Positions 20,512-54,715 of a stretch of 64,000 nucleotides of DNA are shown piece by piece (the stretch's first letter is position 1; every line of letters begins with the position of its first letter). This DNA comes from an uncultured Alphaproteobacteria bacterium (lineage in GTDB: Bacteria; Pseudomonadota; Alphaproteobacteria; RF32; CAG-239): positions 1 to 64,000 of the forward strand of contig CALXRP010000009.1 in NCBI GenBank assembly GCA_944390885.1, read 5' to 3'. The position numbers and the translations under genes are program-made. Below the pieces are notes generated by a model, which saw only the letters and a list, made by a program, of their open reading frames with translations, was not told where the DNA came from and did no database searches.

Positions 20512-21450
20512 ATGAAGCAGGCACTTAAAAAATCAATCGCATTACACCTGCTGGTCTTTTTCCTTTTCTGGATAGACCTGCCGCTGTTTTGGTCAAACAA
20601 AATGACCTTAAACCAGGTGCCGATTATCGTTGATTTGCAAGATGTCAAAATCTCGGAAATGACCAATCTGCCGCCCAAAGCAAAATTTGGTAAAGAAGAC
20701 AAACCTGCCACACAAAAGCAAAAGAAGGCAGAGAACAGCTATTCCAAAGACGAGCCGGAAGAAGCACCGCAGCAAAAACCTAAAGAAACAGCTAAAGAAA
20801 AGGCAGAAGCAAAAGAAGAGGCTCCGAAAGAAATCAAAAAAGATTTTCTGGTTGCGCCGCAGCCCCGCAAGCCCAAAGTGCCGCAGGCAAAGCCTCAGCC
20901 TAAAAAAGAAGCCCCAAAACCCAAGGCAGAACCCAAAAAACAACCTCCAAAACCGGAGGACAAATCAAAACCAAAGCTGGCCAATCCGTTAAAGAGCTTG
21001 TTGGCCTCGGTTGATGAGATGGAAAAGAATTTGGGGGCGGAAGATGAAGAAGCCACCATCAAAGAAGGAACCAAAGTCCAAAATATGGGTGTGGAAGGCG
21101 GTACCGGCGGAAACTACTTTAGCGAACTGAGTATCTCGGAAATGGATGCTCTGGCCGGACGCTTGCGGGCTTGTTGGAATCTCGACCCTGGTGCCATGGG
21201 CATTGAAAATATGATTATTGAAATCCGCGCAACGTTGAATCAGGACGGCAGCGTCCGCAATGTGGACATTCTGGATATGTCACGCTATAATTCGGACAGC
21301 TTTTTCCGCTCGGTGGCAGATAGCGCCAGACGTGCTGTCTATATCTGCGAACCGGCATATAAGATACTGTCGGAGAAATATCCGGAGAAATATGATAAAT
21401 GGCAAACCATGTTGCTAAGATTCAATCCGTTGAATAAACAAATCAATTAG
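20512..21450 (+). CDS. tolA: TolA-like envelope-spanning protein
   Basis: The 312-residue product follows tolR by five bases. An N-terminal membrane span (about residues 8-26) leads to a long low-complexity region (60-165). That region is rich in Lys, Glu, Pro and Ala and should span the periplasm. The C-terminal domain of about 100 residues (from LSISEMDALAGRLRACWNLDPG) resembles TolA/TonB C-terminal domains that contact TolB/Pal. A terminator overlapping the stop codon ends the operon; tolB and pal are not here. Confidence 0.88.
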   Translation: MKQALKKSIALHLLVFFLFWIDLPLFWSNKMTLNQVPIIVDLQDVKISEMTNLPPKAKFGKEDKPATQKQKKAENSYSKDEPEEAPQQKPKETAKEKAEAKEEAPKEIKKDFLVAPQPRKPKVPQAKPQPKKEAPKPKAEPKKQPPKPEDKSKPKLANPLKSLLASVDEMEKNLGAEDEEATIKEGTKVQNMGVEGGTGGNYFSELSISEMDALAGRLRACWNLDPGAMGIENMIIEIRATLNQDGSVRNVDILDMSRYNSDSFFRSVADSARRAVYICEPAYKILSEKYPEKYDKWQTMLLRFNPLNKQIN

Positions 21451-21477: not shown

Positions 21478-21865
21478 TGTCCCGCAGGCACTTTGTTTTT
21501 TATTGTTATCCCGGACTTCGTTTTTTTTAGTCATCCCTGGGCTTTCTTTTCTTGTGTCATTGCCGGGTTGTGTTTTTTATGTCATCCCCGGGCTTTCTTT
21601 TCTTGTGTCATTGCCGGGTTGTGTTTTTATGTCATCCCCGGGCTTCGACCCGGGGATCCAGATCAACAATAAAGCCAATTTATTAATTTGGATTCTCGGG
21701 TCAAGCCCGAGAATGACAGTACCTTTACACTCTTCACAAACCCCCACCGGAGCAACGCGGCCTCTGCAGCACAGAGCTGTCAATTTGCCGCGCGCCTGCC
21801 GTGCAGGTCATCCCCAGACTCCTTTTTTATAGTCATTGCTGGGCTTGACCTGGCAATCCATTTCG
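21478..21865. repeat. Intergenic repeat cluster 3
   Basis: Contains half copies of the GTCATTGCCGGG and GTCATCCCCGGGC elements separated by runs such as TTTCTTTTCTTGT (21500-21625). A full GTCATCCCCGGGCTTCGACC... copy lies near 21632-21661 and a GGATTCTCGGGTCAAGCCCG... copy near 21690. The GGAGCAACGCGG to CCGCGCGCCTGCCGTGCAGG module covers 21750-21810, and a diverged TCATTGCTGGGCTTGACC... copy ends near 21861. The last copy lies inside the reading frame of the small gene at 21780-22103. Confidence 0.85.
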
Positions 21866-22103
21866 CGTCGATGAGTTTTATTTCCATGACCTTATCCAGA
21901 AATGAAAACAAATATACATATTCTTCCATTCTCACATGGCAGGTGTTTCTTCTCAGTTTTTCTATCCGACCTTTCATAAAGTTTATATGGTTGGATAATT
22001 CGTTGTTGGTCAGCCCTTTTTCCGTCATCATCCGGTCTAACTCCGCATTACAATAACTCCGGAAAGTCTTGAACCATTCTTTTCTATATTTTCTTGATAA
22101 CAT
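21780..22103 (-). CDS. HTH-like small protein, copy A, with repeat-derived C-terminus
   Basis: Residues 1-81 match the protein at 54101-54361 almost residue for residue (both begin MLSRKYRKEWFKTFRSYCNA, then roughly eight substitutions). The segment KGLTNNELSNHINFMKGRIEKLRR and the following YVYLFSFLDKVMEIKL look like an XRE/Cro-type helix-turn-helix, which would make it a small DNA- or RNA-binding regulator; this is inference. The native end (DAKDYPWQ in copy B) is replaced after Asp-Ala-Lys by about 26 residues translated from palindromic repeats (WIARSSPAMT and onward). The ATG follows AAGGAGCGAAAGAA. A conserved structured leader lies directly upstream. Confidence 0.75.
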   Translation of the reverse strand: MLSRKYRKEWFKTFRSYCNAELDRMMTEKGLTNNELSNHINFMKGRIEKLRRNTCHVRMEEYVYLFSFLDKVMEIKLIDAKWIARSSPAMTIKKESGDDLHGRRAAN

Positions 22104-22327
22104 TTCTTTCGCTCCTTAAATTTGTTAAAAACAAAACCGCCGGAAGTTTTCTTCCTGGCGGTGGAGCTCAAAAACTGTACGGTACAGTCGTGGCTATTCG
22201 TCGTGCAGGCACGCTTATATCGGATACTCCGCCGAAGCGGAATAGTTTACAAGATGTTTTCTAGACACCACAACCGGTCTCCTGGCTGCGGGTATTATAT
22301 TAATGCAATATAAGGATTTTGCAAGCG
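22104..22327 (-). ncRNA. Structured leader RNA, copy A
   Basis: This 220-base region matches 53886-54100. It starts just after the uup stop with TTGCAA, 19 bases and TATAAT, then shows a series of hairpins on the minus strand. They are CCGCAGCC/GGTTGTGG with loop AGGAGACC; TCCGC/GCGGA with a TTCG loop; CGTGC/GCACG; and ACTGTA/TACAGT. A terminator-like stem follows (CCGCC-GGAAG arms, AAAA loop, then TTTTGTTTTT), about 20 bases before the ATG. Loops and stems differ from copy B while pairing is kept. It is either an attenuating 5' leader or a separate small RNA. Confidence 0.6.
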
Positions 22328-53885: not shown

Positions 53886-54100
53886 CGCTTGCAAAATCTT
53901 TCCTTTGCTTTAATATAATACCCGCAACCAGGAGACCGGTTGTGGTGTCTCAAAAACATCTTATAAGAAATCCGCTCAAGGCGGAGTGCCGGAAATAAGT
54001 GTGCTTGCACAACGAATAACGGTGACTGATCTTATACAGTTTTTGAGCTCCGCCACCCTTTATCGGGTGGTTTTGTTTTAACAAATTCAAGGAGCGAGAA
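53886..54100 (+). ncRNA. Structured leader RNA, copy B
   Basis: Homologous to 22104-22327 (minus strand). It starts with TTGCAA (53889-53894), 19 bases and TATAAT (53914-53919). Then come hairpin 1 CCGCAACC/GGTTGTGG (53922-53929 and 53938-53945, loop AGGAGACC), hairpin 2 TCCGC/GCGGA (53971-53975 and 53981-53985), hairpin 3 TGTGC/GCACA (54000-54004 and 54007-54011), and a short ACTG/CAGT pair. A terminator-like CCACCC/GGGTGG stem (54053-54058 and 54065-54070) follows, with TTTTGTTTT. The HTH-like gene starts 22 bases later behind AAGGAGCGAGAA. Confidence 0.62.
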
Positions 54101-54361
54101 ATGTTATCAAGAAAATATAGAAAAGAATGGTTCAAGACTTTCCGGAGTTATTGCAATGCGGAATTAGACCGGATAATGACTGAAAGAGGACTGACCAGCA
54201 GTGAATTATCCAACCATATAAACTTCATGGAAGGTCGGATAGAAAAACTAAGAAGAAACACTTGTCATATAAGAATGGAAGAATACGTATATCTGTTTTC
54301 ATTTCTGGATAAGGTCTTGGAAATAAAACTCATCGACGCCAAAGACTACCCTTGGCAATAA
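54101..54361 (+). CDS. HTH-like small protein, copy B, 86 aa
   Basis: The intact member of the duplicated pair (see 21780-22103). It is basic at the N-terminus (MLSRKYRKEWFKTFRSYC). RGLTSSELSNHINFMEGRIE and the later YVYLFSFLDKVLEIKLI resemble an XRE-type helix-turn-helix with its fifth helix; the recognition-helix part is short, so nucleic-acid binding is plausible but unproven. It ends DAKDYPWQ. Palindromic repeats begin about 25 bases after the stop. The conserved structured leader with a terminator lies immediately upstream, which suggests that expression is controlled by readthrough, possibly by the protein itself. Confidence 0.78.
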   Translation: MLSRKYRKEWFKTFRSYCNAELDRIMTERGLTSSELSNHINFMEGRIEKLRRNTCHIRMEEYVYLFSFLDKVLEIKLIDAKDYPWQ

Positions 54362-54385: not shown

Positions 54386-54715
54386 TGTCATTGCCGGACT
54401 TGATCCGACAATCCACCCTTCAAAGCACAAAGCCCTTCACAGAAAATGCCGGAGCAACGCGGTCTCTTGAGCACAATGTTGCCGATTGAGCGCCACCGGT
54501 CGTACCGGTCATCCCCGGGCTTCGACCCGGGGATCCAAGTCAATCATAAAGTCAATTTATTAACGTGGATTCTCGGGTCAAGCCCGAGAATGACATAGGA
54601 AAAGAAAGCCCGAGAATGACAGTACTTTTATACCCTTCACAACCCCGCCGGGTGTGCCGCACACCTGCCGTGCATGTCAAGCCTGAGAATGCCGGGGCTT
54701 AAAAACAGTTCCCTT
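54386..54715. repeat. Intergenic repeat cluster 5
   Basis: Contains GTCATTGCCGGACTTGATCC... (54386-54414), 'GCCGGAGCAACGCGGTCTC' (54450 region), GTCATCCCCGGGCTTCGACC... (54507-54537), GGATTCTCGGGTCAAGCCCG... (54567-54594) and degraded pieces to about 54700. No gene is present in 54362-54725. Confidence 0.82.

Follow-up and report, generated by a model that had tools for sequence, protein, structure and literature searches.

A putative C4-type antisense RNA leader, distantly related to sRNA-Xcc1, expanded on the chromosomes of a bacterial family

What kind of element is a promoter, structured RNA and small gene that recur together behind different housekeeping genes? The 64,000-nucleotide stretch of DNA analyzed here (the window), part of a 1.7-Mb genome (G000), carries two copies of such a unit (copies A and B, Table 1). 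As the original prediction had proposed, both copies are present with a shared promoter, 5′ hairpin and small open reading frame (ORF). In each, a TTGCAA-19-TATAAT promoter-like site is followed by the 5′ hairpin, a structured leader, a terminator-like hairpin, a Shine-Dalgarno sequence and an ORF encoding a small helix-turn-helix (HTH)-like protein. The paired change noted in the third stem is also seen (TGTGC/GCACA in one copy and CGTGC/GCACG in the other) and corresponds to the inner stem of hairpin P2, while the final stem, said to lie at the same place with different bases, was found in both copies as the terminator. The named neighbors rnj and uup were recognized as an RNase J family gene before copy B and a Uup-type ABC-F gene before copy A, both scoring under the NCBIfam cut-offs. 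We propose that the unit is probably a C4-type antisense RNA module that has expanded on the chromosomes of this bacterial family, where it precedes several gene families.

Table 1. Positions in the window of the two units and their parts.
Feature	Position	Strand	Remarks
Copy B, whole unit	53886-54361	+	starts after stop of RNase J family gene
Copy B, promoter-like site TTGCAA-19-TATAAT	53889..53919	+	conserved in most copies; predicted from sequence
Copy B, 5′ hairpin GCAACC/GGTTGT	53924..53943	+	100% of cells paired; two-sided change in 5/6 pairs
Copy B, hairpin Pa	53944..53960	+	loop is a1 (CUCAAAAA, 53949-53956); structure-alignment pair count
Copy B, b1 segment UAUAAGA	53962..53968	+	pairs with b′; 7/7 pairs covary
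Copy B, C4-like domain P1-P2-P3 followed by ACC, 78 nt	53980..54057	+	release by RNase P predicted; processing putative
Copy B, b′ (UCUUAUA), P3 loop	54030..54036	+	structure-alignment pair count
Copy B, a′ (UUUUUGAG), between P3 and P1 3′ strand	54040..54047	+	structure-alignment pair count
Copy B, terminator-like hairpin CCACCC/GGGTGG and T-run	54053..54079	+	first bases overlap P1 3′ strand
Copy B, Shine-Dalgarno AGGAGC region	54090..54096	+	complementary to GCUCC in a′/P1 3′ strand; duplex not significant for copy B alone
Copy B, HTH-like protein gene, 86 aa	54101..54361	+	Pfam, structure model, fold search
Copy A, whole unit	21780-22327	-	starts after stop of Uup-type ABC-F gene
Copy A, promoter and leader RNA	22127..22327	-	both long-range pairings (a1/a′, b1/b′) disrupted; decayed
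Copy A, HTH gene with altered C-terminus, 107 aa	21780..22103	-	sequence comparison

The two copies differ in state: copy A shows decay, whereas copy B remains intact. The long-range a1b1 pairing energy is -18.7 kcal/mol in copy B versus -9.4 kcal/mol in copy A, and the end of the copy A ORF has been replaced by flanking repeat sequence. The proposal that structure rather than sequence is conserved therefore stands for the leaders as a set, among which compensatory change is evident (see below), but the comparison of copies A and B on which it was based overstates conservation because copy A is degenerate. Strong a1b1 pairing was found only in copy B and L002 among the six G000 leaders compared, suggesting that this set of RNAs is declining in the window genome. 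A scan of the window with Rfam returned no family at the gathering cutoff except a tRNA, and hence no known riboswitch. Matches to WsnRNA46 and MIR5512 in the flanks were rejected since they arise from palindromic repeats. Positions 21500-21720 and 54400-54660 are occupied by closely packed REP-like palindromes (GTCATCCCCGGGCTTGACCCGGGGATCC and its variants) together with a shared mosaic (CTTCAAAGCACAAAGCC...); such sequences adjoin or closely trail the right ends of many copies and may drive recombination.

Repetition of the unit above chance, as anticipated, was borne out well beyond these two copies. The HTH protein has matches at seven places in the window genome, one of them to the last 32 residues only, and the RNA has matches at ten, several of which are only fragments. 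In the sister species G005, the protein matches number 12, of which 11 span the full length with 74-87% identity and one has 30%, and the RNA matches number 27. Two leader models, R1 and R2, were run within 101 genomes of the family and matched 91 and 99 of them, respectively; fuller leader counts are 27 in G005, 64 in G032 and at least 119 in G022, a 1.6-Mb genome. Neither model matched G018 (99% complete) or G020 (59% complete), which provide a negative control within the search. Genes behind the leaders (cargo) encode HTH, pilin-like, lipoprotein and secreted proteins. All 20 of the leaders fetched from G022 (L132-L151) precede pilin-like genes; one of the encoded proteins was scanned and matched Bundlin above the cutoff and PilS and N_methyl below it. 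Among the leaders listed for G032, the cargo is mostly predicted secreted proteins or no clear ORF.

The leader structure was drawn and scored across copies, with a separate model for each of the two alpha subtypes because a joint alignment misaligned P2. In this drawing, a1 in the Pa loop pairs with a′, the strand just 5′ of the P1 3′ strand, and b1 pairs with b′ in the P3 loop. Since both pairings interleave with P1, the drawing represents a pseudoknot, or else the pairings alternate. The hairpins had been recognized from the sequence of the window alone, but these two long-range pairings and the complementarity to the ribosome-binding site (RBS) described below had been missed. Across 18 leaders of the window subtype, 92.8% of cells are paired, compared to 81.4% when shuffled and 38-50% when slid. 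The same alignment contains 112 two-sided changes versus 38.6 in shuffled controls; these fall in 24 pairs, including all seven b1/b′ pairs. RNAalifold, given 14 subtype sequences and no structure, recovered the P1-P2-P3 junction and the terminator. A P1-closed three-way junction with P2 and P3 of the sRNA-Xcc1 type is thus present in the RNAalifold result, in the drawn structure and in the L031 alignment, and the 78-nt domain of copy B folds into the junction on its own (z of -2.6 against mononucleotide shuffles).

The 20 paralogous G022 leaders behave similarly, with 96.6% of cells paired, 108 two-sided changes versus 29.5 in shuffled alignments and covariation in 7/7 b1/b′ pairs. Among their paired columns, variability is highest in b1/b′ (identity 0.56-0.59, versus 0.91-0.97 for the P1, Pa and P3 stems). 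The ends of the domain also carry recognizable signs: of 60 loci, 39 have GG as the first two bases of the match and 39 have RCC after the P1 3′ strand. These signs resemble those of RNase P substrates and suggest processing by this enzyme 5′ of P1. At the level of comparative sequence analysis, the leader structure, its expansion and the private pairing described next are established.

The strand formed by the P3 loop and a′ is complementary to the upstream a1/b1, as is expected of a C4 RNA; most loci also show complementarity between this strand and the RBS of the leader's own gene. A perfect complement of at least 7 nt to the own RBS was found in 64% of 22 phylum loci, compared to 7% for the RBSs of other loci and 7% for shuffled sequences. 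The corresponding values in the alpha set are 71%, 38% and 7%; the 38% reflects the same Shine-Dalgarno sequence being common to many loci, and the alpha RBS signal is therefore partly shared. The RBS claim rests on this exact-run test, since the RBS signal was weak when long windows were compared in a duplex test. Taken by itself, copy B shows no significant antisense/RBS duplex, 7.8% of shuffles being equally good. Pairing between a1b1 and the antisense strand is specific within genomes. Cognate versus non-cognate energies are -19.6 versus -9.1 in G022 (cognate best in 18/20), -23.5 versus -10.9 in G032 (20/20) and -20.2 versus -11.3 in G005 (10/11). Thus, a and b sequences vary from copy to copy within a single genome and are still complementary, amounting to a private code for most copies in the sets tested, including most of the 20 leaders before pilin-like genes. 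This pattern suggests that the antisense RNAs may silence in trans and regulate privately. It also means that candidate orthogonal antisense pairs occur naturally by the dozen within one genome.

Comparison with known RNA families does not support the original suggestion of an unnamed type standing alone. Rfam cmscan aligns copy B with sRNA-Xcc1 (RF02221) from end to end (53980-54062; E=0.0066) at 26.9 bits, missing the gathering cutoff of 53 bits. Searches with RF02221 matched 24 of 57 relatives at about 31-47 bits (top score 46.7) and none of 14 control genomes. They also matched 57 of 398 Pseudomonadota genomes, 39 of these above the cutoff, and scores in phylum and phage loci reach 83.1 bits. 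With intermediate relatives spanning the gap in scores, the leader RNA is, as judged from these alignments, a distant, subthreshold relative of sRNA-Xcc1 with C4-like workings.

The sRNA-Xcc1 loci read across the phylum usually have a gene close behind the RNA. Nine of ten proteins selected from the phylum set for a Pfam scan had matches (Bro-N, 3; Phage_pRha, 2; SymE_toxin, 2; KilA-N, 1; P22_AR_N, 1). Strong sRNA-Xcc1 matches often lie immediately upstream of phage antirepressor genes (Bro-N, KilA-N, P22_AR_N or Rha) or of symE, and the RNA directly precedes an annotated ant gene in Pasteurella phage Pmp2 (65.7 bits) and Mannheimia phage 3927AP1 (62.8 bits). Previously, sRNA-Xcc1 was detected as a free 88-nt RNA (PMC2996969) and was located ahead of symE within integron cassettes of Xanthomonas (PMC12444791). 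Our literature search, which was incomplete in coverage, found no paper joining 'sRNA-Xcc1' with 'antirepressor'. The published description is of a trans-acting, virulence-linked sRNA rather than a leader's own antisense RNA, and the Rfam model, while aligning end to end with P1-P2-P3 of the window RNA, contains neither a1/b1 nor an RBS target. The context seen here makes it testable whether sRNA-Xcc1 is a C4-type antisense leader belonging to phage antirepressor genes and symE. In a genomic island of Xylella fastidiosa Temecula1, five sRNA-Xcc1 copies lie ~381-386 bases apart (coordinates from PMC12189769), a spacing that would fit a tandem array of leader and small-gene units.

A C4-type mechanism would operate as follows. 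The leader transcript carries a1 and b1, then the P1-P2-P3 RNA with antisense segments b′ and a′, the terminator-like hairpin and finally the RBS of the gene. Cleavage by RNase P 5′ of P1 would release an antisense RNA of ~78 nt, and this freed RNA, or the uncleaved leader, would block translation of its own gene by pairing with that gene's RBS region. The terminator would restrict read-through. The silenced gene would be a small HTH regulator in the window and an antirepressor in phages. That the leader is self-regulating, as was originally suggested, hence appears likely. The a1/b1 copy would pair with the same antisense strand, setting private specificity or timing; in phage P1, a1/b1 plays a role in C4 control.

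The published C4 RNA of phages P1 and P7 (c4/ant; RF01695, c4-2, clan CL00128) resembles these leaders in several respects. It sits upstream of the gene it silences and folds into P1-P2-P3 over ~77 nt, with GG at the 5′ end of P1, where RNase P cuts at GGW (PMC5320573, PMC2864571). Its b′ segment covers the RBS and its a′ segment confers specificity (PMC5320573), a logic also set out in a review (PMC12197685), and the c4-a1b1 motif upstream was listed by Weinberg et al. (PMC2864571). In contrast to P1/P7 C4, leaders of the window subtype carry an intrinsic-type terminator after P1, and the leaders described here are chromosomal, occur in up to ~119 copies and are associated with HTH, pilin-like and surface-protein genes rather than ant. 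The window cargo is small and HTH-like and not a phage antirepressor; antirepressors are the cargo in other loci. Rfam C4 covariance models gave no match in the alpha loci at E≤1 and no match to these RNAs in the gamma loci. The leader RNA is therefore C4-like in logic yet outside the Rfam C4 families by model test. The one C4 match in the gamma loci is a separate, subthreshold c4-2 RNA (34.8 bits; L071, 2890-2958, minus strand) in a locus that also bears an sRNA-Xcc1/P22_AR_N unit, so one prophage may hold two C4-type systems.

Two further systems invite comparison. The sar RNA of P22, also found here in phage CUS-3, similarly exerts antisense control of a P22-type antirepressor, but it lies on the opposite strand and belongs to a different Rfam family and fold. 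The group 1 C4-derived sRNAs of Acinetobacter baumannii are likewise multi-copy, chromosomal and C4-like with a variable a′ region, but were described as free sRNAs whose targets are not known (PMC5320573), whereas the leaders here precede their own genes with covarying private pairs.

Alternatively, the leader could act only in cis, as a pseudoknotted attenuator or a riboswitch: P1, the a1/b1 pairing and the terminator would together switch a single transcript, and no free antisense RNA would be made. A single transcript does hold all of the pairings, the P1 3′ strand both overlaps the terminator and includes the anti-Shine-Dalgarno segment, and the P2 internal loop is conserved. However, we consider this explanation unlikely, given that the cargo genes are unrelated, which argues against a single ligand, and that the b1/b′ columns are the most variable and yet remain complementary, as antisense specificity would predict. 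The detection of sRNA-Xcc1 itself as a free RNA and the phage antirepressor context also speak for a C4-type module.

Could the RNA structure instead serve the spread of a small, non-autonomous MITE-like element rather than gene control? The mobility raised in the original prediction has a sound part, dispersal. The rnj site is empty in the sister species G001 and G006, where only a plain terminator-like hairpin follows an RNase J gene product that is 96% identical, and copy B was thus gained in the G000 lineage or lost in theirs. The gene at window positions 20512-21450 has a unit behind it in G005 and none in the window; the same left edge (AAAATCCGCTTGCAAAA) appears behind different genes; and internal-deletion and 5′-only fragments of the unit exist. 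Inspection of the copies by eye, however, revealed heterogeneous right edges and no clear inverted termini or target-site duplications. A candidate terminal inverted repeat, a loose likeness between the left edge and TTTTTTGCAATCATTTT located after four G000 copies, was rejected because it is absent in G005. Moreover, 5 of 11 sites are common to G000 and G005, indicating that many copies are old, and other subtypes retain the RNA with different gene families. We judge such an element to be very improbable as a full account. A type-I-like toxin-antitoxin unit comparable to SymE units, with a small harmful protein kept silent by the antisense RNA, appears equally far-fetched. The protein is small, the copies are several and sRNA-Xcc1 relatives occur 5′ of SymE_toxin genes both here and in Xanthomonas integrons (PMC12444791), but the window protein weakly resembles Xre HTH regulators and is unlike any known toxin, and the alpha cargo seen is mostly regulators or surface proteins.

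Taking the unit as a C4-type module, the expansion presents an sRNA-Xcc1-type RNA that has become numerous on bacterial chromosomes, where it is a candidate switch for individual genes. More speculatively, and with some doubt, we raise the possibility that surface-protein and regulator genes of the family are run as complete repertoires, with up to ~119 leaders in 1.6 Mb, by C4-type antisense RNAs that carry individual codes and are related to phage immunity RNAs. Every gene might be silenced by its own RNA, with the shared anti-Shine-Dalgarno segment allowing cross-talk; pilin-like and other surface proteins could then be expressed one at a time or in combinations.

The 86-aa protein of copy B weakly resembles Xre/Cro-type HTH proteins. 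It matches HTH_26 under the Pfam cutoff (E=0.002), and its predicted structure has four helices (mean pLDDT 72.8) with HipB, SinR and C.Esp1396I as nearest folds, at E-values that are not significant. Searches of NCBIfam gave no match and those of PHROGs nothing firm. The named records that encode this protein are metagenome assemblies from deer rectum that carry the label Alphaproteobacteria. A second HTH family (MGKFYYHTTA..., ~113 aa) lies behind the same leader in G005 and G006 (L175-L186), and L016 in G000 is a seemingly broken member of it, with a stop after 19 codons. At L052, the gene behind the leader encodes an EcoRI-type adenine methyltransferase (Pfam E of 2.6e-38). In G002 and G004, more distant members of the genus, a different leader of similar kind (GAGGTCTGAAAGCCT ... 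GGAGGATGGGTCG) lies a few hundred bases past rnj (L210 and L211).
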